The position numbers were made by a program, and so were the translations under genes. Shown here in pieces: positions 3,820-21,635 of a stretch of 64,000 nucleotides of DNA (position 1 is its first letter; each line of letters opens with the position of its first letter). Below the pieces are notes generated by a model, which had not been told where the DNA came from, searched no databases, and saw nothing but the letters and a program-made list of their open reading frames with translations. This stretch comes from Microbulbifer sp. HZ11 (GTDB lineage: Bacteria > Pseudomonadota > Gammaproteobacteria > Pseudomonadales > Cellvibrionaceae). Where the stretch lies: NCBI RefSeq assembly GCF_000708675.1, contig NZ_JELR01000002.1, forward strand, positions 992,001 to 1,056,000, in the 5' to 3' direction.

Positions 3820-3825
3820 GGACCA

Positions 3826-5412: not shown

Positions 5413-5448
5413 CCCCCGCCCCCGGCAATCCATCCAAGGAGCATCACA

Positions 5449-6174
5449 ATGGCCACAGTCCTGATCACCGGCGCCGCCGCCCGCCTCGGCCGCGCCATTG
5501 CCGAAGAGCTGCACCGGGACCACCAGGTCATCATTCATTATCGGCAATCCGCCCGGGCCGCCCTGGCGCTGGTAGACACACTGAATCAGCGCCGTGCCGG
5601 TTCCGCCGCCGCGGTTCAAAGCCGTCTCGCCGGAGCAGAGGACTGCCAGCAGCTGGCGGATTCCGCCCTGGCCTGCTTTGGCGAGATTACCGCACTGGTC
5701 AACAATGCCTCTGCGTTCTATCCCACCCCCATTGGCGACGCCACCGAACAGCAGTGGGAAGAGCTGATGGGCAGCAACCTCAAGGCCCCGTTCTTTCTCA
5801 GCCAGGCGCTGGCTCCCGCGCTGGCGGAACAGAGTGGCTGCATCGTCAATCTTGCGGATATCCACGCGGACAAGCCCATGCCCAGCCACCCAATTTACAG
5901 CTCGGCCAAGGCCGGCCTAGTGATGTTGACCAAGAGCCTGGCACGAGAACTGGCACCGAGGGTACGTGTGAATGCGGTGGCGCCCGGGGCAATTCTGTGG
6001 CCAGAACAGGAGGGTGAAGGCTATAACAAGGAACAGATACTGGCGCGCATCCCAATGCAGCGCAGCGGTGACCCGACAGACATCGCCCGAACCGTGCGCT
6101 TTCTGGTCGCTGACGCCCCCTACATCACTGGTCAGGTGATTGCCGTCGATGGCGGTCGCAGCCTGAATATTTGA
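5449..6174 (+). CDS. Pteridine-reductase-like short-chain dehydrogenase (SDR)
   Basis: This 241-residue classical SDR resembles PTR1/FolM-type pteridine reductases. The cofactor motif TGAAARLGRA replaces the usual TGxxxGxG, followed by HYRQSA, a typical NADPH-type pteridine reductase pattern. NNASAFYPTP, and catalytic Tyr and Lys in YSSAKAG, are present, and the C-terminus PYITGQVIAVDGGRSLNI is typical. It would reduce dihydropteridines or dihydromonapterin with NADPH. folB and folK lie about 2-3 kb downstream on the opposite strand, which fits a folate/pterin neighbourhood. A ribosome site AAGGAG lies just upstream of the ATG. A generic SDR with another substrate cannot be excluded. Confidence 0.86.
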   Translation: MATVLITGAAARLGRAIAEELHRDHQVIIHYRQSARAALALVDTLNQRRAGSAAAVQSRLAGAEDCQQLADSALACFGEITALVNNASAFYPTPIGDATEQQWEELMGSNLKAPFFLSQALAPALAEQSGCIVNLADIHADKPMPSHPIYSSAKAGLVMLTKSLARELAPRVRVNAVAPGAILWPEQEGEGYNKEQILARIPMQRSGDPTDIARTVRFLVADAPYITGQVIAVDGGRSLNI

Positions 6175-6207
6175 GTTGTTTACACGTTTAGCGCCCGAGG
6201 TATTTCA

Positions 6208-6783
6208 GTGAGCGAAAAACAGTTTATTTCTGCCCAGTCCCTGCTGGACGATTCCTATACCCTGGCTCTGAAAGTCGTGGAAAGCGGCTTTCGGCCGGAC
6301 TACATCGTCGGCGTCTGGCGCGGCGGCGCCCCCATTGGTATTGCGGTTCAGGAGATGTTCGACTTTCTCGGTTTTCACGCCGACCATATCGCTATCCGCA
6401 CATCGTCTTACTACGGTGTCGATCAACGCCAGAAAGACGTGAAGGTGCACGGCCTCACTTATCTGATCAAGCAGGTCGAATCCCATGAGAAAATGCTGAT
6501 CGTGGACGACGTGTACGATACCGGGCTGAGTATCCAGCAGGCGATCAAAGATATGCAGAAAGCCTGCAAAAAGAACACACCGGAAATCCGCATCGCCTGC
6601 CCCTACTTCAAACCCAGCCGCAACCAGACAGAAATGGAGCCGCACTACTACCTGCACGAGACCGATCAATGGCTGGTGTTCCCCCACGAGCTGCAGGGTT
6701 TGAGCGAGAAAGAAATCCTCGAAAACAAGCCGGAGCTGCGCAAGCACGAGGCGCTGCTGCGCAGACTCAAGAACGGCGGTTGA
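6208..6783 (+). CDS. Phosphoribosyltransferase (hypoxanthine/xanthine-guanine type)
   Basis: This 191-residue type I phosphoribosyltransferase has the PRPP-binding loop MLIVDDVYDTGLS at about residues 93-105 and an early YIVGVWRGGAPIG segment for pyrophosphate binding. It resembles bacterial purine phosphoribosyltransferases that salvage hypoxanthine or guanine, but the specificity hood is not diagnostic by eye. Translation starts at GTG (6208); an ATG alternative would remove the first beta-strand. It lies 33 bases after the SDR gene and is likely co-transcribed. A palindromic repeat follows at 6789. Confidence 0.85.
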   Translation: MSEKQFISAQSLLDDSYTLALKVVESGFRPDYIVGVWRGGAPIGIAVQEMFDFLGFHADHIAIRTSSYYGVDQRQKDVKVHGLTYLIKQVESHEKMLIVDDVYDTGLSIQQAIKDMQKACKKNTPEIRIACPYFKPSRNQTEMEPHYYLHETDQWLVFPHELQGLSEKEILENKPELRKHEALLRRLKNGG

Positions 6784-6788
6784 TTGTT

Positions 6789-6881
6789 GGTGGATGCGCT
6801 GCGCTTATCCACCCTACAAAACTCGCGCCCTGCAGGCGAACTTTCGAGCACTCCGCGCCGTTCGCCTGCAAAGCAGGCCTC
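6789..6881. repeat. Dispersed palindromic repeats, copy 1
   Basis: An imperfect palindrome built on GGTGGATGCGCTGCGCTTA followed by TCCACC occupies 6789-6813. It is followed by two inverted GC-rich arms, CCCTGCAGGCGAA (near 6828-6840) and TTCGCCTGCAAAGCAGG (6861-6877). The same pair of modules recurs in the same order at 8138-8259. This is the layout of REP/BIME-type intergenic elements. Confidence 0.7.
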
Positions 6882-7009
6882 TATCTCAAGTGGTATCAAA
6901 AACTATCGCGAGAGCGGAAATATCAACGCCCTTTACGCTTACGATAATCCCGTGACGCTGCGGTACGCGCTACAGTGCCCCGACTGTATTGCATCAACCG
7001 GAGCCAATC

Positions 7010-8122
7010 ATGAGCCATTCCCTCGATAGCCTGCTGCGTCCCTTCGAGCACAAATCTCTCAAGCTGCGCAACCGCGTCGCCATGGCCCCCATGACCCGCA
7101 CCGCCTCGCCGGGCTATGTACCCAATGACCAGGTAGCCGGCTACTACCGCCGCCGCGCCGAGGGCGAGGTGGGCCTGATCATTACCGAAGGCACTTTTGT
7201 CGGCCACCCCGCTGCCAACGGTTACGAAAATGTGCCGGCCATTTACGGCGATGAAGCCATGGCCGGCTGGAAAAAAGTCGTGGATGAAGTACACACAGCG
7301 GGCGGCCAGATTATTCCGCAACTGTGGCATGTGGGCGCGGTACGCAAGGAAGGTACAGGCCCGGATAAATCCTTCCCCGCCCATTCCCCTTCCGGTCTGT
7401 TCAAACCGGGCAAGCCTAACGGACAGGCGATGGGCAAACAGGATATCCAGGACACTATCAAAGCCTTCGCCGATTCCGCCCTTGCCGCCAAGCAGGCTGG
7501 CTTCGATGGTGTCGAGATTCACGGCGCCCACGGCTATCTGGTAGACCAGTTTTTCTGGGAAGGCACCAATGTGCGCGACGACGAGTACGGTGGCTCACTG
7601 GAAAACCGCACCCGTTTCGCGGTGGAAATCGTGGAAGCCGTGCGCGATGCCGTGGGTGAGGACTTCGCCATCGTGCTGCGCTACTCCCAGTGGAAACAGC
7701 AGGATTACGAAGCGCGCCTCGCCCGTACCCCGCAGGAACTGGAGCGCTTCCTGAAGCCGCTGGTGAATGCCGGTGTGGACATCTTCCACGCCTCCACAAG
7801 ACGTTTCTGGGTGCCGGAATTTGAAGGTTCCGATATGAACCTGGCGGGCTGGACCAAGGAGCTCACCGGCAAGCCGGTCATCTCCGTGGGCAGCGTTGGC
7901 CTGGATGACGACTTTATCGGCGGCAACAACCAGGGCATGGGCGGTACCGCCAACCCCACCGGCCTGGACGAGCTGGTACGCCGGATGGATAACAGCGAGT
8001 TCGACATGATCGCCGTAGGCCGCGCGCTGCTGCAGGATCCAAACTGGCTGCAGAAGGTGAAAGATGGGCGCGAAGAGGAGATTGTGCCGTTTACCAAGGA
8101 GGCGCTGGCGAGCTTGAGCTGA
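7010..8122 (+). CDS. NADH:flavin oxidoreductase, Old Yellow Enzyme family
   Basis: This 370-residue FMN-dependent ene-reductase-type protein reduces activated C=C bonds such as enones and quinones, and possibly nitro compounds. The ATG at 7010 (MSHSLDSLLRPFEHKSLKLRNRVAMAPM) fits the family start better than the TTG at 6989. Key motifs are RNRVAMAPMTR, the substrate-binding pair in EIHGAHGYLVDQFFW, and the EYGGSLENRTRF signature. The phosphate-binding glycine segment is near SVGSVGLDDDFI. It is cytoplasmic and apparently monocistronic, bracketed by palindromic repeats. The physiological substrate cannot be read from sequence. It is not a 2,4-dienoyl-CoA reductase, because the Fe-S and FAD domains of that larger enzyme are missing. 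Confidence 0.92.
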   Translation: MSHSLDSLLRPFEHKSLKLRNRVAMAPMTRTASPGYVPNDQVAGYYRRRAEGEVGLIITEGTFVGHPAANGYENVPAIYGDEAMAGWKKVVDEVHTAGGQIIPQLWHVGAVRKEGTGPDKSFPAHSPSGLFKPGKPNGQAMGKQDIQDTIKAFADSALAAKQAGFDGVEIHGAHGYLVDQFFWEGTNVRDDEYGGSLENRTRFAVEIVEAVRDAVGEDFAIVLRYSQWKQQDYEARLARTPQELERFLKPLVNAGVDIFHASTRRFWVPEFEGSDMNLAGWTKELTGKPVISVGSVGLDDDFIGGNNQGMGGTANPTGLDELVRRMDNSEFDMIAVGRALLQDPNWLQKVKDGREEEIVPFTKEALASLS

Positions 8123-8137
8123 GTCGTTCAAATCCGA

Positions 8138-8260
8138 GTGGTGGATGCGCTGCGCTTATCCACACTACAGCGCACTTTCTACCACGCATTCTGTAGGAGC
8201 CTGCCCTGCAGGCGAACGATCGAACACCTCGAACTACTCGCCTGCAAACAGGCTCCTACG
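8138..8260. repeat. Dispersed palindromic repeats, copy 2 (REP-like pair)
   Basis: The module GTGGATGCGCTGCGCTTATC recurs at 8140-8160, then two nearly complementary arms beginning GTAGGAGCCTGCCCTGCAGG (8193-8215) and ending CAAACAGGCTCCTAC (8244-8259). Inverted arms of about 23 nt separated by about 20 nt can form a long hairpin. The GTAGGAGC...GCTCCTAC ends resemble REP elements of pseudomonads. Confidence 0.75.
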
Positions 8261-8294
8261 AACACACGATAAGAGCACGATAATAATCGGCACT

Positions 8295-8792
8295 TTATTG
8301 CACTGGCCAGTCAAACTCCACCGGCCACAAATTTTGCGAAGTCTGATCGTAAGCTTCCCACAATTGCTGATAGGTTTTCCCTTCGAGCGGGTGCTCGGTA
8401 TCCGGAGCCAGTTCGGATAAAGGCAGTAACACAAACGCATTCTTGAGAATCTCGCCCCGCGGCAACTTAACACCATCCACTTCGCCGGTGAGATCATCAA
8501 AAGTCAGGATATCGATATCCAGTGTGCGCGCGCTGAACTTCGGACCACTGCGCAGGCGGCCGTTGGCATCCTCGATATCACGTAGCTTTGATGCCAGCCC
8601 GCCCACCGACAATTCGGTTTCAATGGCGGCGACCAGGTTATAGAAGTTGTCGCCGTCGAAGCCTACCGCTTCACTTTCGTACACCTGCGACATTTTCAGA
8701 TCACCAAACGCTTCCACCAGCGCGTCGAGACCGGCGCTCAGGTGTTTTTCACGATCGATATTACTGCCGAGACTCAGGTAGACGGTCGCCAT
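8295..8792 (-). CDS. folK: 2-amino-4-hydroxy-6-hydroxymethyldihydropteridine diphosphokinase
   Basis: This 165-residue HPPK transfers pyrophosphate from ATP to 6-hydroxymethyl-7,8-dihydropterin in folate synthesis. The start MATVYLSLGSNIDREKHL is the classical HPPK N-terminus. Substrate-binding and catalytic elements follow: YESEAVGFDGDNFYN, RSGPKFSARTLDIDILTFDD (the R-x-x-R-x-x-DxD type signature) and LPLSELAPD. Length matches the family (about 160). It begins three bases after the folB stop and forms a compact minus-strand cluster with folB and tsaD. Confidence 0.95.
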   Translation of the reverse strand: MATVYLSLGSNIDREKHLSAGLDALVEAFGDLKMSQVYESEAVGFDGDNFYNLVAAIETELSVGGLASKLRDIEDANGRLRSGPKFSARTLDIDILTFDDLTGEVDGVKLPRGEILKNAFVLLPLSELAPDTEHPLEGKTYQQLWEAYDQTSQNLWPVEFDWPVQ

Positions 8793-8795
8793 GAT

Positions 8796-9182
8796 TCAGG
8801 CCTCCGCACTTTGTTTGCTACCACGGTCACTGGATCCCCCGCGCTCTATTACCACACCCACATCGCGGGCGCCGCGTACGGCGCCGGGCTTGGAAAGACG
8901 CAGGCGCAACCAGCTTACCTTGAATTCTTTACGCACAATGTCCGCGGCCTGCTCGGCCATGGTTTCCACCAGTAGAAATTCGCTTCCCTCGATAAACGCA
9001 ATCAGGCGTTTGGCTACGGCCTTGTAGTTGAGAGTGTGCTCGATATTGTCGGTGCGGGCGGCCTCACGGATATCGAAGGCCATTTCCAGGTCCAGGCTGA
9101 CGGTCTGGCGAACTTCCCGCTCCCAATCGTAGATGCCAATAATGGTGTCGACCTTGAGATCGCGGATATAAACGATGTCCAA
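8796..9182 (-). CDS. folB: Dihydroneopterin aldolase
   Basis: This 128-residue enzyme converts 7,8-dihydroneopterin to 6-hydroxymethyl-dihydropterin and glycolaldehyde. The start MDIVYIRDLKVDTIIGIYDWERE is characteristic; conserved active-site elements are the Glu in IYDWE and the Lys in the VSWLRLRLSKPGAVRGARDVGV segment. It lies directly upstream of folK (3-nt gap) and 24 nt downstream of tsaD. The order folB-folK supplies consecutive pathway steps. The C-terminal tail after VVIERGG is short and unremarkable. Confidence 0.95.
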   Translation of the reverse strand: MDIVYIRDLKVDTIIGIYDWEREVRQTVSLDLEMAFDIREAARTDNIEHTLNYKAVAKRLIAFIEGSEFLLVETMAEQAADIVRKEFKVSWLRLRLSKPGAVRGARDVGVVIERGGSSDRGSKQSAEA

Positions 9183-9206
9183 AAGCTGTCTCCTTTTATT
9201 CCGCTG

Positions 9207-10262
9207 CTATTTATTGTGTTTCGAGGTTGCGTCGAGGGCGCCGGTCAATTCAGTCAGTGGCCAGCGGGGGCGCACATCGATCGCAAGGTCACTTTGCTGC
9301 CCGGCCTGCAGTCGCAAACAGCCGGCGTAGGCAATCATGGCACCATTGTCGGTACAGAATTCCTGACGCGGGTAGTACACGCTGCAGCCATCTTCGGCGA
9401 GGCGCGCTTCCAGGCGCTGGCGCAGTAACTTATTCGCGGATACGCCACCGGCAATTACCAGGGTTTTGCGCTTTGACTGCTTGAGTGCACGACGACACTT
9501 GATGACCAGAGTGTCCACCACCGCCTCCTGGAATGCCGCAGCGATATCCGCGCAGGTCTGCTCATCCGGCAGCCCGTCCTCCAGTGCGTGCTGTTGCACG
9601 GTGGTGAGCGTGTAGGTTTTCAGACCGGAAAAGCTGAAATCGAGCCCCGGGCGATCGGTCATGGGGCGCGGAAAGGTAAAACGCAGCGGATCGCCCTTTT
9701 CCGCCAGTGCGGCAAGGCGCGGGCCACCGGGGTAATCGAGGTCCAGCATCTTCGCGGCCTTATCGAAGGCTTCGCCGGCCGCATCATCCAGAGATTCGCC
9801 CAGCAATTCGTACTGGCCCAACCCCTGTACGTCCACCAGCTGGGTATGGCCACCGGAAACCAGCAGCGCCACGAATGGAAATTCCGGCGGATTCTCTTCC
9901 AGCATGGGCGCGAGCAGGTGGCCTTCCATATGGTGCACACCGATGGCCGGCACATCCCAGCCGTAGGCAATGGCGCGGCCGGCACAGGCGCCCACCATCA
10001 GCGCGCCGATCAGGCCGGGGCCGGCGGTATAAGCGACACCGTCGATCTGTTCCGGCCTGGTGTTGCTTTGCGCCATCACCTCGCGCACCAGCGGCAGCAG
10101 TTTGCGCACATGGTCACGACTGGCCAGTTCCGGCACAACGCCGCCGTAATCGGCGTGCAGTTTCACCTGACTATAAAGAGTGTGACCGAGCAGACCCTGC
10201 TCACTGTCGTACAGGGCGACGCCGGTTTCATCACAGGAAGTTTCTATGCCGAGTACTCGCAC
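9207..10262 (-). CDS. tsaD: tRNA N6-threonylcarbamoyladenosine synthase subunit TsaD
   Basis: This 351-residue Kae1/Qri7 family protein transfers threonylcarbamoyl to A37 of ANN-decoding tRNAs, working with TsaB, TsaE and TsaC. It starts [19 protein letters not shown]. The metal-binding HxxxH motif is at residues 111-115 (HHMEGH), followed by LVSGGHTQL and the C-terminal [10 protein letters not shown] and [10 protein letters not shown] motifs, all family hallmarks. It is divergent from rpsU, the standard gammaproteobacterial arrangement, with a 416-nt shared intergenic region, and is followed by folB and folK. Confidence 0.97.
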
Positions 10263-10518
10263 GGTGCCGGATATTTCCTCAAAAATTGAAAATTAACCGA
10301 GCGGACCACAAAAACGGACATTTTGCCGATTCGGACCCGGTTGCGGGGGCGCTATCATACTCTCAGATGGACCAGAAATCCGCCGTACGGCCCGGCGGGC
10401 GGGGGAAATCAGGACTATATTTACCTGCCTTTCCAGCAACCCTCCACCGACCCCGGTGCCCTATGGCCGGCATGTTTCAACGGGTCACACTTGATTGACG
10501 GGTTTAGGTCCACAAGGC

Positions 10519-10547
10519 TTGCGAAGGCCAAATCATCTGTATAGAAT
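10519..10547 (+). promoter_or_regulatory. Probable rpsU promoter
   Basis: TTGCGA (10519-10524) and TAGAAT (10542-10547) are separated by 17 nt, giving a start near 10554 and a leader of about 125 nt before rpsU. The rest of the divergent region 10263-10518 shows no ORF I would support. Confidence 0.5.
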
Positions 10548-10678
10548 TTGCGCCCTCGCTGTGAACCGGCCTCCGGCCTGATCTGCGAGATCAACGTTAG
10601 CCGGATAGGCCCCGCCAGATCCACACGAGCCATGCTCTATGGATTTTGGCCGAGAGAAACAATTTTACAGGTAATCTA

Positions 10679-10894
10679 ATGCCATCAGTACGCATCAAAG
10701 ACAACGAGCCATTTGACATCGCTCTGCGCCGCTTCAAGCGCTCCTGCGAGAAAGCCGGTGTACTCTCCGAAGTACGTCGTCGTGAGTTTTACGAGAAGCC
10801 CACTTCCGTTCGCAAGCGCAAGGCTGCTGCCGCTGTTAAGCGTCACGCCAAAAAACTGCAGCGCGAAAACCGCAAGTTCCAGCGTCTCTACTGA
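10679..10894 (+). CDS. rpsU: 30S ribosomal protein S21
   Basis: This 71-residue, highly basic protein is the small-subunit protein S21 ([20 protein letters not shown] start, Arg/Lys-rich C-terminus ending NRKFQRLY). The start is the ATG at 10679; an in-frame upstream ATG would add a non-conserved 11-residue tail. It is the first gene of the macromolecular synthesis cluster rpsU-(yqeY)-dnaG-rpoD. A terminator-like hairpin follows at 10961-10996, so downstream genes probably depend on readthrough or extra promoters. Confidence 0.97.
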
Positions 10895-10960
10895 GTTTTA
10901 CCGGACTTGAGTCCGGTCTCTCGCTCACAGCACGCTGACGCGAACGCGGTTCGCGATCTG

Positions 10961-10996
10961 AAACGGCGCCCGAGGCTACCTCGCGCGCCGTTTTCT
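10961..10996 (+). terminator. Hairpin after rpsU
   Basis: AACGGCGC pairs with GCGCCGTT across a short GC-rich loop, followed by TTCTATTTCT. A smaller CCGGACTTGAGTCCGG hairpin precedes it at about 10901-10916. In the E. coli rpsU-dnaG-rpoD operon an internal terminator occupies the same position. Confidence 0.6.
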
Positions 10997-11108
10997 ATTT
11001 CTGGAGCCCCCTCCAAAACGCTGCCACTTCAGCAGCACCTCCACAGGCGCTATGCTTAGCCGCCTGAACCCGAATTCTTACTTCCGCAACCAGAACGGAC
11101 GACACCCG

Positions 11109-11552
11109 ATGAGCACACTCAAGGAAACCCTCTCCACCGCCACCAAAGACGCCATGAAGAACCGCGACAAAGCGCGCCTGGCGACCCTGCGCCTGATCAA
11201 TGCGGAGATCAAGCGGGTAGAAGTGGACGAGCGTATCGAGCTGGACGACGCGCGCATCCTGGCCCTGCTGGATAAGATGACCAAGCAGCGTCGCGACTCC
11301 ATCACCCAGTACGAGAAAGCGGGCCGCCCGGAGCTCGCGGAAGTGGAGCAGCAGGAAATCGACGTGATCCAGGACTTCCTGCCGGAGCAGCTGTCCGAAG
11401 CGGAAATCCAGCAAATCGTCACCGCCGCTGTCCAGGAAACCGGTGCCAGCAGCATGGCGGATATGGGCAAGGTGATGGCACTGGTTAAACCCCAGGTGCA
11501 GGGCCGCGCCGATATGGGTGCGGTGAGTAAGCTCGTCAAAGCCGCCTTTTGA
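11109..11552 (+). CDS. yqeY: GatB/YqeY domain-containing protein
   Basis: This 147-residue YqeY family protein resembles the C-terminal tRNA-binding helical domain of GatB/GatE amidotransferase subunits. I use the ATG at 11109 (MSTLKETLSTATKDAMKNRD), the conserved start; the ATG at 11052 adds 19 unconserved residues. The family blocks RLINAEIKR, EQQEIDVIQDFLPEQLSEAEI and the DMGKVMALVKPQVQGRADMG C-terminus are all present. Placement between rpsU and dnaG is common in gammaproteobacteria. The exact function is unproven. Confidence 0.93.
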   Translation: MSTLKETLSTATKDAMKNRDKARLATLRLINAEIKRVEVDERIELDDARILALLDKMTKQRRDSITQYEKAGRPELAEVEQQEIDVIQDFLPEQLSEAEIQQIVTAAVQETGASSMADMGKVMALVKPQVQGRADMGAVSKLVKAAF

Positions 11553-11693
11553 GAATCACAGCAAAACTACTGCGCGGGCGCCTGACGGCGTCCGGCGGTG
11601 CTCGGAATGCTCATGTACTACTTGTACACTCCGCTTCCTGCGCTCCGGCGGCCACCGCCAGCCACCCGCTCGCTACGTTTTGCAGCGATTCTC
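11551..11693. repeat. Dispersed palindromic element, copy 1 (about 143 bp)
   Basis: Terminal GAGAATC (11551-11557) and GATTCTC (11687-11693) enclose a structured region containing CTACTGCGCGGGCG, a near-palindrome ATGTACTACTTGTACA and CACCCGCTCGCTACGTTTT. A second copy with the same internal blocks lies at 62751-62906. The yqeY stop codon overlaps its first bases. Confidence 0.7.
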
Positions 11694-11721
11694 AGTGGTT
11701 TAAATAGGCTAGTAATTATTT

Positions 11722-13734
11722 ATGGCAGGCAAGATCCCGCAGTACTTTATCGACGACCTGTTGGCCCGCGCCGACATAGTTCCGGTGGTCGATAGCCGGG
11801 TCAAACTGCGCAAGACCGGAAAAAACTATTCCGCCTGCTGCCCGTTTCACGACGAAAAAACACCTTCTTTCACCGTAAGCCCGGACAAACAGTTCTACTA
11901 CTGCTTCGGCTGCGGTGCCAGCGGCAATGCGGTCGGCTTCCTGATGGAGTACGACCGCCTGCCCTTCCCGGAAGCGGTCGAAAAACTCGCGGCGAGCCTG
12001 GGCCTGGAAGTCCCGCGGGAAAAACTCGATGCAGGCCAGATCAAACGCCAGCAGGAGAGCCAGTCTCTCTATCAACTCACCGAGAAAGCCGCCGACTTCT
12101 ACCGGGAAAAACTCCGGGACCACAAGGTCTCCACCCCGGCCATCACTTACCTGAAAAACCGCGGTCTTTCCGGCGCTGTGTGCAAGGAATTCGGCATCGG
12201 CCTGGCCCCGCCCGGGTGGGACAATCTGCTCAACCAGCTGGGCACCAGTTCGGAGAAAGCGGAGCAGCTGGAGCTGGCCGGCCTCGCTATCCGCCGCCAG
12301 GACAGTGATGGCAAGACGGAACCGGGCAAGCGCCACCACTACGACCGCTTCCGCAACCGCATCATGTTCCCCATCCGCGACCAGCGGGGACGCACCATCG
12401 CCTTCGGCGGCCGGGTGCTGGGGGACGATAAGCCGAAATACCTGAACTCCCCGGAAACCCCGATCTTCCACAAGGGCCGTGAGCTCTACGGCCTGTGGGA
12501 AGCGCGCCAGGCCAACCGCGAGCTGAAGCGACTGATCGTGGTGGAAGGCTATATGGACGTGGTGGCCCTGGCCCAGTTCGATATCCGCTGCGCTGTGGCC
12601 ACCCTAGGCACCGCCTGCGGCGAAGACCATATCCAACTGGCCTTCCGTCATACCCAGGAACTGGTGTTCTGCTTCGACGGCGACAAGGCCGGCCGCACCG
12701 CCGCCCGCCGCGCCTTAGAAGCTGCACTACCGCATATGCAGGACGGCCGCAGCCTGCGCTTCCTGTTACTGCCGGAAGGGGAAGACCCGGACACCCTGGT
12801 GCGCCAGATTGGCGGCGAGCGCTTCGACAAACTGATCGACGAACAGGGCCGCCCCCTGGAGGACTTCCTGTTCGACCTGCTGGGTGAGGGCATCAATATC
12901 CAGACCATGGACGGCCGCGCACGCCTGTCGAAAGCCGCCGCGCCGCTGCTCGACCTCCTGCCCAAAGGCGTCTACCGCCAACTGATGTTCCAGCAACTGG
13001 CGCGGCGTACCGGCCTCGAACAGGACATGCTGGAAGAAATCATCGCTGCGGAAAAAGCCCGCAGTGCGGAGCTCGCCCGCCAGGCCCAGCCCGCGCCAAA
13101 ACCGGCGCAGAAGCAGGCCCCCGGGCCCGCCGCGATGGCGCAGCCCGGCGAACCCACCGCCCCCCATTTCGGCGAAGAAATACCCCCCGCGGAAGCCTAC
13201 GACGGCCCCCCGATTGAAGACGAATATACCGCGCCGCCACCGGACTACCCGGACGACCGCGGCCCGGGCAACACGCCCCGCCGGCGCAGCGGACAGTACC
13301 GCCTGCCCGCCGAGCGCATGCTGATCGCCCTGCTGCTGCACCACCCCCAGCTGGCGGAGCTGATTGACGACAGCAGCCGCTTCCAGAACAGTGATGACGC
13401 GGATTTGCAGCTGTTTGGGGAAATTCTTCAGGTACTGCACAAAAACCCGGCGCTCAACAGCAACCAGCTGTTCGGTCGCCTGATGAACCTGGAAAGCAAG
13501 GAAGCCCGCGAACTGCTGCCCCGCCTCGCCATGAGCCACCCGATCATCGGCGGCCAGGGCCAGGTGCTGGAATACGACCCCCACACCGAGTTCAGTGACT
13601 GCCTGCGCACCCTGGAGCTCGCCGCGGAGCGCCAGCGCAAGCGGGAACTGCTCGGCCAGCTCAAGACCAACGGCAACCAGCTGAGCGCCGAGCAACTGGC
13701 GCTACTGGCGCAGTTTCGCCCGAAGAAAGACTAA
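11722..13734 (+). CDS. dnaG: DNA primase
   Basis: This 670-residue primase synthesises RNA primers at the replication fork. The N-terminal CHC2 zinc ribbon has C40, H43, C61 and C64 (CCPFHDEKTPSF and YYCFGCGASGNAVGF). The TOPRIM catalytic core has LIVVEGYMDVVAL (about 271-283) and FDGDKAG (about 318-324). A Pro/Ala-rich, low-complexity hinge lies at about residues 450-530. The C-terminal helicase-binding domain (PAERMLIALLLHHPQLAELI) binds DnaB. It is slightly longer than the E. coli enzyme (581 aa), mainly because of the hinge. It is followed by a large palindromic element and then rpoD. Confidence 0.97.
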   Translation: MAGKIPQYFIDDLLARADIVPVVDSRVKLRKTGKNYSACCPFHDEKTPSFTVSPDKQFYYCFGCGASGNAVGFLMEYDRLPFPEAVEKLAASLGLEVPREKLDAGQIKRQQESQSLYQLTEKAADFYREKLRDHKVSTPAITYLKNRGLSGAVCKEFGIGLAPPGWDNLLNQLGTSSEKAEQLELAGLAIRRQDSDGKTEPGKRHHYDRFRNRIMFPIRDQRGRTIAFGGRVLGDDKPKYLNSPETPIFHKGRELYGLWEARQANRELKRLIVVEGYMDVVALAQFDIRCAVATLGTACGEDHIQLAFRHTQELVFCFDGDKAGRTAARRALEAALPHMQDGRSLRFLLLPEGEDPDTLVRQIGGERFDKLIDEQGRPLEDFLFDLLGEGINIQTMDGRARLSKAAAPLLDLLPKGVYRQLMFQQLARRTGLEQDMLEEIIAAEKARSAELARQAQPAPKPAQKQAPGPAAMAQPGEPTAPHFGEEIPPAEAYDGPPIEDEYTAPPPDYPDDRGPGNTPRRRSGQYRLPAERMLIALLLHHPQLAELIDDSSRFQNSDDADLQLFGEILQVLHKNPALNSNQLFGRLMNLESKEARELLPRLAMSHPIIGGQGQVLEYDPHTEFSDCLRTLELAAERQRKRELLGQLKTNGNQLSAEQLALLAQFRPKKD

Positions 13735-13746
13735 AGCCGAAGCGAA

Positions 13747-13860
13747 GGTGCTGATACCGGGTATGCCTTTGTGAGACCTTCACCGCCATGGATGGCGGTG
13801 CAGAGCCCCCAGGGACGGGTTCACGGCGTGTCGCACAAAGGCATACCCGGTAGCGGCACC
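13747..13860. repeat. Large compound palindrome between dnaG and rpoD
   Basis: Two perfect 19-nt inverted arms, TACCGGGTATGCCTTTGTG (13755-13773) and its complement (13834-13852), extend imperfectly to GGTGC/GCACC at 13747 and 13860. Nested inside is CACCGCCA-tgga-TGGCGGTG (13781-13800). The other internal sequence (CAGGGACGGGTTCACGGCG) resembles conserved cores of intergenic repeats in related marine bacteria, from memory. Confidence 0.75.
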
Positions 13861-13921
13861 GCCACAAAAGCAATTCAAATCTACCCCTTGAATTTCAAGG
13901 CGCCATCACCATATAGACTGA

Positions 13922-13942
13922 CCCGCCGCCCAAAGCGGCGGG
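13922..13942. terminator. GC-rich hairpin in the dnaG-rpoD interval
   Basis: CCCGCCGC and GCGGCGGG pair perfectly across a 5-nt loop. No T-run follows, so it may be a processing or Rho-dependent signal rather than an intrinsic terminator. Confidence 0.35.
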
Positions 13943-14026
13943 AAGCCAAAGACAAGCGCGCCCGGACACCCTGAACCACGCCTTCTGCCTTGACAGTCAC
14001 AGTGGTTATTGCTATCGCAAATACGC

Positions 14027-14032
14027 TATAAT
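14027..14032 (+). promoter_or_regulatory. rpoD promoter -10 element
   Basis: A perfect TATAAT lies 60 bases before the rpoD ATG, in the context CGCTATAATCCCGCG. The -35 at proper spacing is weak (around 14005-14010). A perfect TTGACA at 13990-13995 is too far away (31 nt) to pair with it directly, so two start sites are possible. Confidence 0.5.
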
Positions 14033-14091
14033 CCCGCGTCTTTGTCCAGACAAAAGTCCCGACTATCAATCCCCAGAATTCAGGGTTGTGC

Positions 14092-15966
14092 ATGACCGAC
14101 AAAACCCAGCAGCAAAAAACCACCTCCCGCATTCGCGAACTGATTGCCCGCGGCAAAGAGCAGGGCTATCTCACCTATGCGGAAGTGAATGACCACCTGC
14201 CGGAGGACATCTCCGATCCCGATCAGGTGGAAGACATCATCGGCATGATCAACGACATGGGTATCAAGGTGTTTGAACAAGCACCGGATGCCGAAGAACT
14301 GTTGATGGCCGAAGGCGATAGCTCCGCTGACGAAATCGCCGCCGCCGAAGCCGCCGCCGCACTTGCCGCCGTAGAATCCGACGTAGGCCGCACCACCGAC
14401 CCCGTGCGCATGTACATGCGCGAAATGGGTACCGTAGAGCTGCTTACCCGGGAAGGCGAAATCGCCATTGCCAAGCGCATCGAAGAAGGCCTGCGTGAGC
14501 TGATGGCTGCACTCGCCTACTGGCCAGGCGCGGTACAGCAGATCATCGACGAATATGCGCTGATCGAGAAAGAAGAGCGCCGCATCCCCGACGTCATCGC
14601 CGGCTGGCTCGACCCCGCCGACGAAGTCCCCCCGGGTGCCCAGGCTGGCCAGGCCGCAGAAGCCAACAAGCCCGACGACAAGGACGACGATAACGAGTCC
14701 GACGGCGACGATGACGACAATGACGACTCTACCGAGGAAGAGGAAAACGTCGGCGGCATCGATCCGGAAGAACTGGCTGAGCGCATGAACGCGCTGATCG
14801 CCGCACAGAAGAAAGCAGATGCTGCCGTCAAGAAGCACGGCCGCGATTCCAAAGAGGCCGGCGAGGCCATGGAAGCCGTGGGTGAAGTGTTCCGCTTCTT
14901 CAAACTGGCACCGCGCCAGTTCGACCCGCTGTACAACGCCGTACGCAGCATCCTCGATGACGTGCGCGCGCAAGAACGCCTGATCATGAACCTGTGCATC
15001 AAGCGTGCCCGCATGCCGCGCAAGACCTTCATCAAGGAGTTCCCCGGCAACGAAACCAATCTTGACTGGATCCCCGCGATCATCAAGAAAAAGCGCGATT
15101 ACTCCGACGCACTGCGTCAGGTCGTCGACGAGATTCAGCGCGCTCAGCGCAAACTACAGCAGGCGCAAGACAAAGCCCAACTGGATGTCGGTCAGATCAA
15201 AGAGATCAACCGCCGCATGTCCATCGGCGAAGCCCGCTCCCGCCGCGCCAAGAAAGAAATGGTTGAGGCCAACCTACGTCTGGTAATTTCTATCGCGAAG
15301 AAATACACCAACCGTGGCCTGCAATTCCTGGATCTGATTCAGGAAGGCAACATCGGCCTGATGAAAGCAGTGGACAAGTTTGAATACCGTCGCGGTTACA
15401 AGTTCTCCACTTACGCTACCTGGTGGATTCGTCAGGCGATCACTCGCTCGATCGCCGACCAGGCGCGCACCATCCGAATTCCGGTGCACATGATTGAGAC
15501 CATCAACAAGCTCAATCGGATCAGCCGCCAGATGCTGCAGGAAATGGGCCGTGAGCCTACTCCGGAAGAACTGGGCGAGCGCATGGAAATGCCGGAAGAC
15601 AAAGTGCGCAAAGTCCTGAAGATCGCCAAAGAGCCGATTTCCATGGAAACGCCGATCGGCGACGATGAAGACTCCCACCTGGGCGATTTTATCGAAGACC
15701 AGAACCAGTCTTCCCCGATCGACACCGCAACGTCCACCGGCCTGCACGATGCCACCCGCTCCGTGCTGTCCGGGCTGACCGCGCGGGAAGCCAAGGTACT
15801 GCGCATGCGTTTCGGTATCGATATGAACACCGACCACACCCTCGAGGAAGTGGGCAAACAGTTCGACGTTACCCGGGAACGTATCCGTCAGATCGAAGCC
15901 AAGGCGTTGCGCAAACTGCGCCACCCCTCGCGTTCCGAGCACCTGCGCAGCTTCCTCGACGAGTAA
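14092..15966 (+). CDS. rpoD: RNA polymerase primary sigma factor (sigma-70)
   Basis: This 624-residue housekeeping sigma factor starts at the ATG 14092 ([11 protein letters not shown]); the TTG two codons earlier is unlikely. Region 1.1 occupies about residues 1-80. A long non-conserved region includes a very acidic run ([17 protein letters not shown], about 197-213). Region 2 has [22 protein letters not shown] and the promoter-melting [15 protein letters not shown]. Region 4.2 carries the -35-recognition helix [18 protein letters not shown]. Length agrees with gammaproteobacterial RpoD. It ends the rpsU-dnaG-rpoD series and is followed by a strong terminator. Confidence 0.98.
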
Positions 15967-16704: not shown

Positions 16705-18621
16705 ATGTCGACTCTGCGACTGGCTCGCGGCATTTTCGCCGGCGCCAAACCCTCATTGATGACCCCACTGGCGCTCACCAGCGCGCTATTCTCGCCCGGC
16801 CTCCACAGCCAGGTACTGCTGGGTAGCGACAACGACACGTATACCCTGACCAACAGGCACAGTGCCAGTCGCCACGGTAGCGCACTGATCGACGGCGGGC
16901 CGGGGGTCGACACCCTGACCCTACACAACATTTCCCTCGACAATCCCTCGCGCCTGCAACACTGGGAGTCAATACGGCTGCGGAACCGCGCGCAACTGAC
17001 ACTGGATACCCCACTGGTACTCGGAGACGCCGGCGGGCACCCGGGCCACCTGCATCTCGATAGCACCAGCGCCCTGTTACTCCCCTACTTCAGTAGCGCA
17101 CTCACACCATACAATGGACAGCCGTTAACCCTTACCAATCGGGGGGTTATCGACATGCGCGGCAGCACCGCCAATCGATTGACGATCCATGGAGACTATT
17201 GGGGTAGCGGTACCATTTACATGGATATGGTGGCGGAGGGCGATGACAGCCTCGCCGACAGACTGGTACTGCATGGCGGCCATGCCGGTGGCCAAACCCG
17301 GCTGATATTCAATCGTCTCGCCGGCCACGGCGCGGAAACCCAGGACGGTATCCTTGTGGTAGAAGCCCTGAACGGCGCCACCACCAGCCATAACGCATTT
17401 TCCATGAACGGCTCGGTATCCGCCGGCCCCTATGAATACTTCCTGTTCCGCGGCGCCACCTCCCCGGAAGACGCAGACAACTGGTACCTGCGCTCCACCA
17501 TACTCCCCGGTGATGCCCCCTCCCCATCTCAGGGGATCGAAGAGCCCTACGACGTTCTGGCCTTTACCGGCACCGACAGTATTTCCACCGGCAGCGAGAG
17601 CCCGGCCGCCCCCGCCGAGATCAGTGCCATCAACACCCTGGCGGCCCAATCAGGCAATACCCCGGTTCGCATCTACCGCCCGGAAATCCCCCTCTACGCC
17701 CAGGCGAAATCTCTGGCACGCCTGACATCCCTGCAGGAAATCGGCAGCTACCACAAAAGGCGCGGCGAGCAGCGCAGCTGGTTTGACGGGATAAACGAAG
17801 ACTGGATTCGCGTGCACCATATGCGCGCCGACTACGACTGGCACGGCGACATCGACAACCGCTTCGACGGCGACATCAGTGGTTTTCAGTTGGGAACCAA
17901 CCTCTGGTCCGCGCCCACCTGCACCGGCGGCGCGCGGGAAATGGGCCTGTTTGTAGGGTCAACACGGGCGAGTGGCGATGTCACCGGTTTTGCTCGCGGA
18001 TTTATCGATTACAGCGCTGGCCACAACCAGCTGACCAGTCACCACATCGGCTATTACTTCAATGACTACCGCCCGGACATGGGCTACTTTGATTTCACTG
18101 CCAAGGTCGCCTATCTGAAGCTTGAGAGTGAATCCTCACGGGGTATCGGCGACACCATTACCGGCCCCCAGGTGACCCTGTCGATCGAAAAGGGGTTTAC
18201 CTGGCAAGCCACCGAGGCCTTCAATATTGAGCCGCAACTACAGGCCGTAGTGAACTACAGCAACCTGAGCGCATATCAGGATGGCGTCTCCAGAGTGGAG
18301 CCGGATATGACCCCGGAAGCGAACTTCCGCGCCGGTATCCGCGGCTACAATCTGGACAGTCGCTGGCTGGACGGCAATCTGCGTTTTTACCTGTTCGGCA
18401 ACCTCTGGCACACACTTGGCGGTAATGACGAGCTGCTGTTTGATCTAAACGTGCAAACCAACCTGGATCGCCAGGCCACCTGGGGAGAGCTCGGTGGGGG
18501 CATTGTGCTACTGGAAAGCCAGTATGGCAGCGCCTTCCTGAACATTGGCTACCAGCGCTCCCTGGACAACCTGGACTGGTCCGGCGCCAATGCCAACCTG
18601 GGCTTCAACTGGGCCTGGTAA
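16705..18621 (+). CDS. Autotransporter outer-membrane beta-barrel protein
   Basis: This 638-residue protein has a passenger rich in short beta-helix-like repeats (about 35-290; LTNRGVIDMRGSTANRLTIHGDYWGSGTIY is pertactin-like) and a C-terminal autotransporter beta-barrel (about 350-638) ending in aromatic LGFNWAW. The barrel inserts in the outer membrane and exports the passenger. The N-terminus is not a clean signal peptide, but residues 18-36 are hydrophobic, and a later start is possible. No passenger protease motif is visible, so adhesion or a surface role is the best inference. It stands alone, followed by a hairpin and the tRNA. Confidence 0.82.
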   Translation: MSTLRLARGIFAGAKPSLMTPLALTSALFSPGLHSQVLLGSDNDTYTLTNRHSASRHGSALIDGGPGVDTLTLHNISLDNPSRLQHWESIRLRNRAQLTLDTPLVLGDAGGHPGHLHLDSTSALLLPYFSSALTPYNGQPLTLTNRGVIDMRGSTANRLTIHGDYWGSGTIYMDMVAEGDDSLADRLVLHGGHAGGQTRLIFNRLAGHGAETQDGILVVEALNGATTSHNAFSMNGSVSAGPYEYFLFRGATSPEDADNWYLRSTILPGDAPSPSQGIEEPYDVLAFTGTDSISTGSESPAAPAEISAINTLAAQSGNTPVRIYRPEIPLYAQAKSLARLTSLQEIGSYHKRRGEQRSWFDGINEDWIRVHHMRADYDWHGDIDNRFDGDISGFQLGTNLWSAPTCTGGAREMGLFVGSTRASGDVTGFARGFIDYSAGHNQLTSHHIGYYFNDYRPDMGYFDFTAKVAYLKLESESSRGIGDTITGPQVTLSIEKGFTWQATEAFNIEPQLQAVVNYSNLSAYQDGVSRVEPDMTPEANFRAGIRGYNLDSRWLDGNLRFYLFGNLWHTLGGNDELLFDLNVQTNLDRQATWGELGGGIVLLESQYGSAFLNIGYQRSLDNLDWSGANANLGFNWAW

Positions 18622-18692
18622 GGCAGGCGGCACGCCGCTACAGGCGCGACAGAGCGTTGATTTCACGGAAAAAATCGAGTACTTTGCCATCC

Positions 18693-18714
18693 CGCTCGCA
18701 GGACCCTGCGAGCG
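18693..18714. terminator. Perfect hairpin just before the tRNA
   Basis: CGCTCGCAGG and CCTGCGAGCG are perfect inverted arms with almost no spacer (effective 9-bp stem, 4-nt loop), seven bases before the tRNA 5' end. There is no T-run. It could end the autotransporter transcript or be a processing element in a tRNA precursor. Confidence 0.4.
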
Positions 18715-18721
18715 TCTGTGG

Positions 18722-18798
18722 GGGCCTTTAGCTCAGTTGGTTAGAGCATCCGACTCATAATCGGCAGGTCCTGGGTTCAAGTCCCGGAAGGCCCACCA
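18722..18798 (+). tRNA. tRNA with CAT anticodon (tRNA-Met type; possibly tRNA-Ile2)
   Basis: A complete 77-nt cloverleaf: acceptor GGGCCTT/AAGGCCC, D-arm GCTC/GAGC, anticodon loop CTCATAA, T-arm CTGGG-TTCAAGT-CCCGG, and encoded CCA. The anticodon CAT reads AUG, or AUA if C34 is modified to lysidine by TilS. The ACTCATAATCG anticodon arm resembles tRNA-Ile2 of other gammaproteobacteria, so both assignments remain open. One anticodon-stem pair (27-43, T-C) is mismatched. Three tandem copies of its 3' half follow directly. Confidence 0.93.
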
Positions 18799-19101
18799 TC
18801 TTCCCCCAAAGCCCATCACTTCGAACCCGTCGGATGCCGACTCATCTCTCTCCCCGAAAACCGGGCAGGTCCTGGGTTCAAGTCCCGGCAGGCCCACCAT
18901 CTTCCCCCAAAGCCCATCACTTCGAACCCGTCGGATGCCGACTCATCTCTCTCCCCGAAAACCGGGCAGGTCCTGGGTTCAAGTCCCGGAAGGCCCACCA
19001 TCTTCCCCCAAAGTCCATTACTTCGAACCCGTCAGATGCCGACTCATCTCTCTACCCGAAAACCGGGCAGGTCCTGGGTTCAAGTCCCGGAAGGCCCACC
19101 A
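18799..19101 (+). repeat. Three tandem 101-bp repeats, each ending in the tRNA 3' half plus CCA
   Basis: Units 18799-18899, 18900-19000 and 19001-19101 have an exact 101-bp period. Units 1 and 2 differ at one base; unit 3 differs from unit 2 at four. The last 36-37 bases of each unit reproduce the tRNA variable loop, T-arm, acceptor 3' strand and CCA. Upstream in each unit are GTCGG-atg-CCGAC, a copy of the anticodon-arm string CCGACTCAT, and CCCG-aaaac-CGGG. No 5' acceptor or D-arm strand is recognisable. A period of 101 is not a multiple of three, so the array is not coding. Confidence 0.95.
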
Positions 19102-19208
19102 TTTTTCTTACTTTCCCCCTTCTATCCTGCGCTTACCATCTATCTCGCTCACGCAAATTGAGATTACTATCTCTCGAAAGTATTCAAAGACACAGCGGGG
19201 CCAGCCCA

Positions 19209-19559
19209 ATGACCGAGCATAAAATCTTTTCCATGCCCTTCGCCAAGGTCTACCCCATGTACGTCCAGAAAGCCGAACGCAAGGGGCGCACCAAGGCGGA
19301 GGTGGATGAGATTATCTGCTGGCTGACCGGTTACGACACCGCTGGTCTGCAGCAACAGGTCGATCAGGAAAATGATTTCAAAACCTTCTTCGCCGAGGCG
19401 CCGGCAATGCATCCGAATATTGCGCTAATCAAGGGCGTGGTATGCGGCGTTCGTGTGGAGGAGGTAGAGGATCCACTGATGCGGAAAATCCGCTACCTGG
19501 ACAAGCTGATTGATGAGCTCGCCAAAGGCAAGGCGATGGAAAAAATCCTGCGTCGCTAG
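19209..19559 (+). CDS. DUF2200 family protein
   Basis: This 116-residue cytoplasmic protein starts [20 protein letters not shown], which I recognise as the DUF2200 family. It has no signal peptide or membrane segment. Conserved-looking elements are [29 protein letters not shown] and a C-terminal lysine-rich [23 protein letters not shown]. An open frame continues upstream to 18834 but runs through the tRNA repeat array and is not real coding sequence. The function of the family is unknown. It is probably monocistronic and convergent with the phosphoesterase gene. Confidence 0.85.
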
Positions 19560-19607
19560 GCCGGCACAGGATTTTCAGGTTACCCGCTTACTGCTACAGC
19601 AAGCGGT

Positions 19608-21635
19608 TTACAGCGGGCGTGCAACCAGAGCCAGTTCCGCATCCTGCTGCAGCACGGCCCACCACTGGTTCGGCGCCGCCGGGTCGATGCCCACCAGGGG
19701 CTGCTCTTCACAACCCGCGACACGCTCCGGTGCGCTGTCGAGGAAGCTGTCCTGCCAGGAAGCCTCCACTACACACATGGGCTCGGCCAGGGGCAACCAT
19801 TCGGTGCCAGTGCGCATGGACAGGATCAGGCTTTCATCGGCAGTTTCCGGGCCGGTGAAAGCCAGCACATAGCGGTCAGATACGGCAGTGCCGAGATCCC
19901 AGGACTTGCTGGCGGTTTCCGGCAGTACCACCGGAGGCTTCTCACCACCATCCGGGCGGCTCATGGGCAGTCCGCTGTCCACTTCGATATCTTTCAATAC
20001 CCCGTAATCGTCCTGGTAGATCCCGGTCTGATTCTGCGTGCCGCTGACGATCAGGATGTCCGAAACCGTTTCGTCCGTGGCGACCAGCCAGCTCAGAGTG
20101 ACATGTTCTTTCAGGTCGATGGTGGTTTCCGCAATGATCAGCTCGTCATTTTCGTAGTCCGGCGCGGCGCGCAGCGGGCTATTCAGATTGGGGGTCCAGT
20201 TTTCGTGATACTGGTACAGCCACTGATAGGCAAGGCGCATCAGATCGTTGAGAGATTCCGCACGCGACAGTCCCGGCGTAAAACCCATATCCCGGGTGCG
20301 GGTGTCGGTGCGGTTGAAGGTCTGATTGCGGCCACCCATCAACTTCGCATAACCACCCTGCGGCGCCAGACACTCATTGGTGCGGTACTCCGGCTGGAGC
20401 ACCATTGCAGATCGCGTCCCCTCGGGAATCGCGTCCGGATAGATGACGGTCTCACAGCGATCGGTGCTGCGAGAGAACCGATCCCCCAGTTTCCAGTCTG
20501 CGTCAAAGGCGTAAGACGCGTCATTACTCTTGGCAGTATGTGGCGCATAGTAAGATACGTAATCTACCCGCGGCCCCTGGAAAGTGAGGATGGAAGAGTT
20601 TACATCGTAAGCCTCGGAACCACTGGAATAGGTCGCGTTTTTCTGGGACACGATCATCTGTACCAGATCGCGCTCACCATAGCGGAATTCATAGCCTTTG
20701 TACGACGCGTTACCAGCCATGATCTGCGTATATACGTCCATACGGTAATTACCGCTGGCAGGGGTCGAGCTGGACGGCAGGGTGTTGAGTGCAGTCTTGG
20801 CAGAAATCAGCGAGCGCTGGTATTGGTGCTCGTGCCCCTGCACATAAATCACATCGTGATCGGCAAAAAACTCGCGGATCTGAGGCTGCACCTGATAGAC
20901 CCAGTTATCGTCTTTGGTGCCCTCGACAATCTGCTCGCGGGTTTGCCCATACTTGGCACCAATCAGGCCATCGTGGCTGGCAACGACAATGTGATCTACA
21001 TTTTCCCGCTGCGTATAGACCACCTGTTTGATCCACTCAAACGCGATCGGCAGGTTGTAATAGGCGAGACCAATGACCAGTACATTCTCACGTACTACAT
21101 AATAGTTAACCCATTCGTACCCGGGCATATGCACCGCATCGGCCGGAATGAAATCGCGCATGTTCTCGATCCATTCGACGGTATAGGCATAGCTGGTTTC
21201 GTGATTTCCCATTACCGGCAGGAACTCGACGCCCTGCTCCGCATATTCGTCGGCGATGGAGCGCCACTCTGCAAATTCGATTTCAGAACCGTGGTCTGTG
21301 AGATCACCGAGCGCGAGCACCATATCCACACCATTCGCTTTCTGGTGCTTCAAAACTTCACTCATCGGGTGCATCGACACATGCGCCTGACCTTCACTAT
21401 CGGTTCCACCCTGAGTGTCCGGCAATAGACCTATGCGGAATACCGGTGCCGGCGTAGTCTCTTGTTCTGCCGATTCCTCGTCATCGGGCTCGGCCTCATT
21501 CTCCGGTTGCTCATTGACCTCTTCAGGAATAATCGGCGCGGTAGAATTGCCACTGTCCGAGTCGCAACCGGACAGCAGATTGGTAAAGAGCACCACCAGC
21601 ACCATTGCCGGCAGGGCAATTTTTGATTTCAACAC
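19608..21635 (-). CDS. Calcineurin-like metallophosphoesterase lipoprotein
   Basis: A secreted lipoprotein of about 675 residues with a calcineurin-type phosphoesterase domain. I choose GTG at 21635, which has a GGGGG ribosome site; a GTG at 21647 is also open. The signal peptide ends in a lipobox LLSGC (Cys about 24), followed by an acidic spacer. Metal-ligand motifs are LLPDTQ, ALGDLTDHG, VMGNHET, SHDG and GHEH, in the standard order, within about residues 65-275. The C-terminal half (about 300-675) has no domain I recognise and may be beta-rich. It may hydrolyse extracellular phosphoesters. The substrate is not evident. Confidence 0.85.
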   Translation of the reverse strand: MLKSKIALPAMVLVVLFTNLLSGCDSDSGNSTAPIIPEEVNEQPENEAEPDDEESAEQETTPAPVFRIGLLPDTQGGTDSEGQAHVSMHPMSEVLKHQKANGVDMVLALGDLTDHGSEIEFAEWRSIADEYAEQGVEFLPVMGNHETSYAYTVEWIENMRDFIPADAVHMPGYEWVNYYVVRENVLVIGLAYYNLPIAFEWIKQVVYTQRENVDHIVVASHDGLIGAKYGQTREQIVEGTKDDNWVYQVQPQIREFFADHDVIYVQGHEHQYQRSLISAKTALNTLPSSSTPASGNYRMDVYTQIMAGNASYKGYEFRYGERDLVQMIVSQKNATYSSGSEAYDVNSSILTFQGPRVDYVSYYAPHTAKSNDASYAFDADWKLGDRFSRSTDRCETVIYPDAIPEGTRSAMVLQPEYRTNECLAPQGGYAKLMGGRNQTFNRTDTRTRDMGFTPGLSRAESLNDLMRLAYQWLYQYHENWTPNLNSPLRAAPDYENDELIIAETTIDLKEHVTLSWLVATDETVSDILIVSGTQNQTGIYQDDYGVLKDIEVDSGLPMSRPDGGEKPPVVLPETASKSWDLGTAVSDRYVLAFTGPETADESLILSMRTGTEWLPLAEPMCVVEASWQDSFLDSAPERVAGCEEQPLVGIDPAAPNQWWAVLQQDAELALVARPL

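Follow-up and report, generated by a model that had tools for sequence, protein, structure and literature searches.

A putative rtT-type tail array of interrupted tRNA copies behind a CAU-anticodon tRNA gene of Microbulbifer sp. HZ11

Introduction

Why would three copies of the 3′ part of a tRNA stand in tandem directly behind the intact tRNA gene? This question is raised by a locus of Microbulbifer sp. HZ11 (genome G000; genomes are denoted here by G numbers and loci by L numbers). The window, meaning the whole 64-kb stretch of DNA that was analyzed (G000:C2:992001-1056000), has a single tRNA gene, located at positions 18722-18798 of the plus strand, with a CAU anticodon and the ARAGORN label Met. 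I propose that the sequences behind this gene form an rtT-type tail array, in which decayed tRNA copies interrupted in the anticodon loop lie in the 3′ trailer of the tRNA and have their copy number set by recombination. I regard the chances of this full reading as about even. Its structural and evolutionary part, which was drawn from sequence comparison, is very probably correct. Its RNA-level part, concerning the working or function of the array RNA, is a tentative suggestion.

Results

TRF found a tandem repeat at 18763-19102, with a period of 101 bp, 97% matches, 0% indels, and a score of 645. The three 101-bp tail units occupy 18799-18899, 18900-19000, and 19001-19101 on the plus strand. 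Units 1 and 2 differ at one position, units 2 and 3 at four, and units 1 and 3 at five, the third unit being the most diverged. The last 36 nt of units 1, 2, and 3 (18864-18899, 18965-19000, and 19066-19101), which comprise the variable loop, the T-arm, the acceptor 3′ strand, and CCA, have 1, 0, and 0 differences from the last 36 nt of the tRNA. Thus, the ARAGORN and TRF results and the 36-nt comparison bear out the initial annotation, which had described an intact tRNA followed by three repeats of an exact 101-bp period, with one and four mismatches between units and with the 3′ part of the tRNA copied at the end of each. It had also reported a copied anticodon-arm string followed by an unrelated insert, and CCGACTCAT is indeed present in all three units and followed by non-tRNA sequence.

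Unit 1 starts with a 30-nt C-rich stretch, followed by a fold-back GTCGG-ATG-CCGAC (18829-18841, plus strand), in which an antisense copy of the anticodon-arm 5′ strand precedes a sense copy. Next comes a pyrimidine-rich insert (18842-18862, plus strand), consisting of TCATCTCTCT and 11 more nucleotides, which replaces the 3′ side of the anticodon loop and recurs as CTCA-N-CTCT in many relatives. It is followed by GGGC (18863-18866, plus strand), able to pair with the GCCC before ACCA, and by the 36-nt tRNA copy, which overlaps the GGGC. Equivalent fold-backs are located at 18930-18942 in unit 2 and at 19031-19043 in unit 3, with one pair broken in the latter. The arrangement exceeds what chance would give: the 340-nt block is found at a single place in the 4.2-Mb genome, and tails are few among its tRNA genes (see below). 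The view that no 5′ half is recognizable in the units also held: the unit 1 spacer matches the tRNA locally over 9 nt at best, on one strand as on the other, and 36 and 43 of 2000 shuffles did as well for the two strands. Neither ARAGORN nor Rfam cmscan reported a tRNA in the tail units, 18722-18798 being the only one reported in the window.

Is the intact gene really a tRNA-Met gene? The tRNA has C4-G69 and C5-G68, which I take to be TilS/tRNA-Ile2 determinants. In alignments, it shares 64 identities in 78 columns with E. coli ileX and 61 in 85 with metT; the figures for the second non-initiator CAU tRNA of the genome (C2:201557, adjoining a tRNA-Gln) are 57/80 and 58/77, respectively. The genome also has two initiator tRNAs (C2:390088 and C2:390219). 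These sequence features give weak support to tRNA-Ile2(CAU) as the likelier identity.

The leader at 18642-18721 (plus strand) is the putative promoter region of the tRNA, and these 80 nt are 84% and 74% identical to those of the relatives G003 and G031. A hairpin, CGCTCGCAGG-ACC-CTGCGAGCG, is located at 18693-18714, just 5′ of the tRNA, and by eye it has a paired change in G003. A consensus scan of 18500-19400, which includes the T-rich stretch after the last CCA (19102-19114, plus strand), detected no promoter and no intrinsic terminator. Elsewhere in the window, TRF detected a 9-bp tandem repeat (CCGGAATCT, 8.4 copies) at 56878-56953. Is the array a protein-coding repeat, an idea once put forward for tpr of the E. 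coli array? An ORF at 18834-19559 spans the array and continues into the frame of the downstream DUF2200 gene (PF09966 over residues 5-115). However, this gene has its own start at 19209, and the unit lengths of the relatives (98, 100, 101, 103, 107, 90, 119, 130, 131, and 133) do not keep the frame. A coding role is hardly credible.

Is the array common in the genus? Searching 48 genomes of the genus found units in only three: three units in G000, one of exactly 101 bp in G003, and one in G031, where an island now puts 6 kb between the unit and the tRNA. When 42 loci, 40 of them with the CAT tRNA, were checked directly for a 3′-end copy within 1400 nt, only G000 and G003 had one. G002, a species close to G003, represents the empty site of the latter, lacking exactly 101 bp at the CCA; the two sequences are 95.3% identical after the unit and 43% identical if aligned directly after the tRNA. 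This one-unit difference is as expected from recombination between two 3′ halves. Since the array was not found in 45 of the 48 genomes and is absent in G002, it is not essential. In G022, of the same genus, a second copy of the CAU tRNA carries a group I intron (RF00028, 98 bits; L034:651-899) in its anticodon loop.

The spacers of the Microbulbifer units are C-rich and G-poor (29 C and 9 G of 65 in G000). Spacer identity to G000 is 0.82 in G031 and 0.77 in G003 (shuffled mean 0.54, with 0 of 500 as high), and the 100 nt after the array have identities of 0.51 and 0.60 for the two relatives. For G128, which belongs to another genus, the spacer identity is 0.54 (shuffled 0.47). It may be asked whether a pseudo-tRNA has simply expanded neutrally, sustained by unequal recombination and by gene conversion with the tRNA, without any function as RNA or DNA. 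Such an origin agrees with the sporadic distribution (3 of 48 genomes in the genus and 6 of 390 in the order by a strict pattern that misses some known units), with the exact absence in G002, with the decayed units in G128 and G335, and with the weak fold statistics described below. However, the spacers are 77-82% identical, against 0.47-0.48 and 0.53-0.56 at fourfold sites of the neighboring genes (47-56% overall). Because the spacer is not part of the tRNA, its conservation cannot come from gene conversion with that gene and calls for either selection or a transfer between species by recombination. The CTCA-N-CTCT core also recurs across genera and families and once outside the order, although both the conserved spacer and the core could still be due to such a transfer of the array. 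I consider a neutral array a substantial possibility, short of probable.

How far does the tail array extend beyond the genus? A model of nine units (R1) was run over 144 genomes of the family, and a further model (R2) over 390 genomes of the order and 369 genomes of the class. R1 located arrays or units behind this tRNA in G128, G130, G084, G089, G091, G092, and G093, and isolated copies in G099. The family total is at least 12 of 144 genomes (11 including G000, G003, and G031, plus G111). G128 has four full units and one truncated unit, present on two contigs, G084 has three full units by direct reading (4.0 copies by TRF), and the G091 array contains a run of N. In the order, R2 added G146, G235, G315, G335, G354, and G111, together with isolated copies in G223. 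The strict pattern, which misses G003, G111, G223, and G335, matched 8 of the 390 genomes, six of which have arrays or units. R2 matched 7 of the 369 class genomes, G000 included; outside the order, three units of 107 bp follow a tRNA(CAT) in G864, the last one ending in CCAGCA. As far as these sequences tell, the tail array is not just a recent stutter, since units of this kind are found behind this tRNA in other genera and families as well. Absence from close relatives, by which the initial annotation would have recognized a recent slippage product, thus applies to the 45 genomes of the genus in which no unit was found, but not to the wider groups.

Several candidates were set aside. G412 and G491, matched by the strict pattern, have single displaced 3′ fragments, and G657 in the class has a fragment of another tRNA. 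G112, G135, G267, and G477 have displaced 3′ fragments; G100, G118, and G129 have the tRNA only; G127 has the tRNA with only a fold-back remnant; and G076 has one T-loop-interrupted copy. A family search with the spacer DNA gave mostly short matches, with E values up to 1; G000, G003, G031, and G128 were kept, and the places in G127, G000:C1, G053, and G137 have no tRNA and no tandem repeat. With the whole block as query, no plasmid or phage record covered 80% of it, and the best 20 of 836 plasmid matches and the best 20 of 1029 phage matches run from query position 1 to at most 103, which is the tRNA part. A degenerate spacer pattern was found in one genome-contig record (M. agarilyticus) and in no viral contigs. 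The isolated pseudo-tRNA units in G099 and G223 (L111, L112, L133, and L134) have no tRNA gene within the 2.0-2.5 kb around them, and L112 and L133 have flanks in common.

What do the units share? The arrays have a common core, CCGACTCA-N-CTCT...GGCAGG. In 16 aligned units, CC(G)ACTC(A) of the anticodon arm is followed by a mostly CT-rich insert replacing TAATC, the variable loop, the T-arm, the acceptor strand, and CCA, and the same plan was found in the units of G235, G315, G354, G146, and G864 and in one or two of those of G335. The longer units of G089, G092, G093, G084, and G235 still have visible D-arm sequence, and one longer G092 unit is called tRNA-Val by ARAGORN. Thus, the units of these five genomes are pseudo-tRNAs and not unrelated repeats, in support of the degenerate tRNA array that had been suggested initially. 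By eye, each unit of G089, G091, G092, and G093 begins with an apparent intrinsic terminator, so that the pseudo-tRNA is poorly placed for transcription there. In G089 (L144, about 1340-14490), an insertion of about 13 kb, with inverted ends by eye, appears to lie inside such a unit start, splitting the array. Hairpin-rich inserts were also seen in the T-loop of decayed tRNA copies of G092, G130, G076, and G089 (L107, L113, L121, L144, and L171), and by eye their style is like that of the insert of E. coli rttR and of a tRNA-Gln tail.

The last 34 nt of the first unit have 0-2 differences from the own tRNA in 10 of 14 arrays compared. The differences number 5 in G003 and 10 in G335, and the G128 units have 11, 15, 1, and 10; the G146 row of the 14 was misplaced by 12 nt, the real unit having 0 differences. 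Comparison with foreign tRNAs is informative only where the T-arm is distinctive. The first unit has 2 differences in 34 from the own tRNA and at least 5 from others in G084, 1 and at least 5 in G354, and 1 and at least 8 in G864.

The GGGC has no counterpart at that place in the tRNA and occurs in 5 of 5 Microbulbifer units, in 3 of 4 G128 units, and in G130, G089, G092, G093, G091, G099a, G235, G146, and G864. Each unit might thereby yield a CCA-ended minihelix, a 37-38-nt GGGC...GCCC-ACCA RNA acting as a decoy that keeps RNase P, the CCA enzyme, a synthetase, or some other factor that binds tRNA occupied. The predicted GGGC/GCCC pairing stood in part: when the 38-mers of units 1 and 2 are folded in isolation, their MFE structures contain it, but an equally good fold was reached by 27 and 41 of 200 shuffles, respectively. 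Also against the decoys, the 38-mers fold no better than shuffles, the MFE structure of the G130 38-mer uses other pairs, and GGGC is absent in G084, G099b, G315, G335, G354, and one G128 unit. Decoys of this kind are quite unlikely. The whole 101-nt units likewise fold no better than shuffles (z = -1.46, -0.62, and -0.50), and for nine units RNAalifold returned +0.59 as the covariation term and a two-sided change in 1 of 16 pairs, which is no useful covariation.

The fold-back has a different sequence in each lineage: GTCGG/CCGAC in Microbulbifer, GTCGGAT/ATCCGAC in G130, GGATG/CATCC in G315, CGTGTG/CACACG in G354, GTCCA/TGGAC in G864, and GCCCG/CGGGC in the tail of an initiator tRNA of G000. 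The sense arm follows the own tRNA of each lineage and the other arm stays complementary, with pairs broken in unit 3 and in G031. Shuffle scoring, which leaves out G003, G084, G335, G091, G235, and G146, was suggestive only for G130 (5/1000), G315 (22/1000), and G354 (48/1000); it was weak for G000 (77/1000), G864 (149/1000), and the initiator tail (137/2000), and in G128 254 of 1000 shuffles were as good, for another stem. No perfect fold-back stem was found in G031 or in G089, G092, and G093, which keep the D-arm. These sequences are suggestive, and only suggestive, of a fold-back that replaces the D-arm in the shorter units with lineage-matched arms.

Are the units traces of site-specific recombination, that is, remnants of integrative elements targeting this tRNA or spare attachment sites shielding it? 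This tRNA is a hot spot for islands. In G007, G016, and G035 (L035, L033, and L032), the native 5′ half is broken at the anticodon loop and a complete different tRNA(CAT), apparently carried by the integrated element, lies close behind; in G031, G044, and G007, the displaced 3′ part is 6 to 39 kb away. The tail interruptions fall in the anticodon loop and the T-loop, the classical crossover places. However, an integrase domain was found in 0 of 20 flanking proteins tested (19 of 71 ORFs at ten array loci and one in the window). The displaced fragments in G007, G044, G112, G135, G267, G477, and G111 run through CTCATAATCGG, where the units have CTCA-N-CTCT or a variant (CTCATCTCTCT... in the window), so the window units do not begin at the crossover seen in these fragments, and the displaced fragment of G031 begins in the T-arm. 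Moreover, the island lies between the tRNA and the unit, not within the unit, in G031 and apparently in G111. An origin by site-specific recombination is unlikely. The suggestion of a serial scar of recombination at the tRNA 3′ end therefore fared unevenly, being supported by the one-unit difference between G002 and G003 but not by any integrase among the proteins tested.

Do other tRNA genes of this genome have such tails? The 44 tRNA genes of G000 (one with only 308 nt downstream before the contig end) were searched for a 19-nt copy of the 3′ end lying outside tRNA genes, no more than 450 nt away and with no more than 3 mismatches. Five genes were flagged and, as initiator copy 1 sees the tail of copy 2, four tails remain: those of the window tRNA, initiator copy 2, and both tRNA-Gln(TTG). 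The tail of initiator copy 2 has the same design as the window array. In one tRNA-Gln tail, a hairpin-rich insert clearly interrupts the T-loop, as in E. coli rttR; the other tail has the same ending, and its upstream T-arm half is not clear. By eye, the initiator tail and one tRNA-Gln tail are followed by terminator-like hairpins with T-runs, which makes transcription plausible there.

Discussion

How might the rtT-type tail array have arisen, and how might it work? Most likely, the array belongs to the 3′ trailer of the tRNA. The unit would have arisen from an extra tRNA copy that suffered an interruption in the anticodon loop and a fold-back onto its own sequence. The number of units would then change by recombination between the identical 3′ halves, which would also convert each other. 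Since every junction restores a complete CCA end, a change in copy number is harmless to the tRNA. The array may be transcribed together with the tRNA, and each unit may be released as a tRNA-like 3′ fragment terminated by CCA, or may end in one, in the manner of E. coli rtT RNA. Being rich in C and poor in G, the spacer may help to stop transcription in a Rho-type manner, which is proposed because no intrinsic terminator was found behind the array; in view of the terminator-like hairpins behind the initiator tail and one tRNA-Gln tail, Rho-dependent termination would not be general. As most relatives are without the array, any benefit should be modest.

A wider idea is that pre-cut tRNA 3′ fragments, encoded as such in genes, form a general class in bacteria. 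Such tails, lying behind several tRNA genes, would be co-transcribed with the parent tRNA, gene conversion would keep their sequence in step with it, and they would be released as regulatory RNAs with a CCA end, in amounts that track the synthesis of the tRNA. The class would have two types: a 3′ half, made by a break in the anticodon loop (the window array and the initiator tail), and a 19-nt piece, made by a break in the T-loop (the tRNA-Gln tails and E. coli rttR). This idea, with its two types, is speculative and rather improbable. The tail layout on three tRNA species of one genome, and across several families, widens a class best known from E. coli. The copy-number variants, the exact empty site (G002 versus G003), and the two interruption types provide natural replicates, and the role of tRNA tail repeats becomes testable outside enteric bacteria. 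As a caution, a tRNA fragment close to a tRNA gene need not mark the end of an island.

How does the array compare with known systems? A literature search, with most subscription papers outside its scope, found no paper on such tRNA tails beyond the RtT ones. There, rtT RNA is placed in E. coli and, by its Rfam family, in relatives such as Pasteurellaceae, the RtT candidates lying upstream of tRNA genes (PMC4986893), and rtT-like sequences are linked with BIMEs (PMC2965389). Partial tRNA genes of integrative elements are described in PMC9897764. Like displaced attR fragments, the tail units are partial 3′ tRNA copies near an intact gene; unlike them, they form a series of three at 101-bp intervals, share a conserved spacer, and are not separated by any element, and none of the 20 flanking proteins tested had an integrase domain. 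The array also resembles the 3′ETS-leuZ sponge RNA in its probable location in the trailer of a tRNA transcript and in possibly having its own role, although the available part of PMC8166272 does not describe 3′ETS-leuZ as a tRNA-derived tandem repeat.

The closest precedent is the E. coli tyrT/tyrV rttR array (rtT RNA, RF00391), which was missed by the initial remark that no standard name was known for such a layout. In both cases, tandem units lie directly 3′ of an intact tRNA, and each unit ends in the parent 3′ end and CCA. E. coli tyrV has three units at an exact 178-bp spacing, ending in 19 nt of the tRNA. In the rttR unit, sense tRNA parts are preceded by an antisense stretch from the T-arm and acceptor of the tRNA, which 0 of 2000 shuffles equalled; the corresponding 9-nt antisense match in window unit 1, GTCGGATGC, is modest (43 of 2000 shuffles as good). 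The Rfam RtT model had no match in G000, with the E. coli control positive, and none at E ≤ 1 in 17000-21000 of the window. The window array differs from rttR in its tRNA, in the length of the 3′ part (36 nt versus 19 nt), and in the place of the interruption (anticodon loop versus T-loop), and the tRNA-Gln tails of the same genome are closer to E. coli rttR than the window array is.
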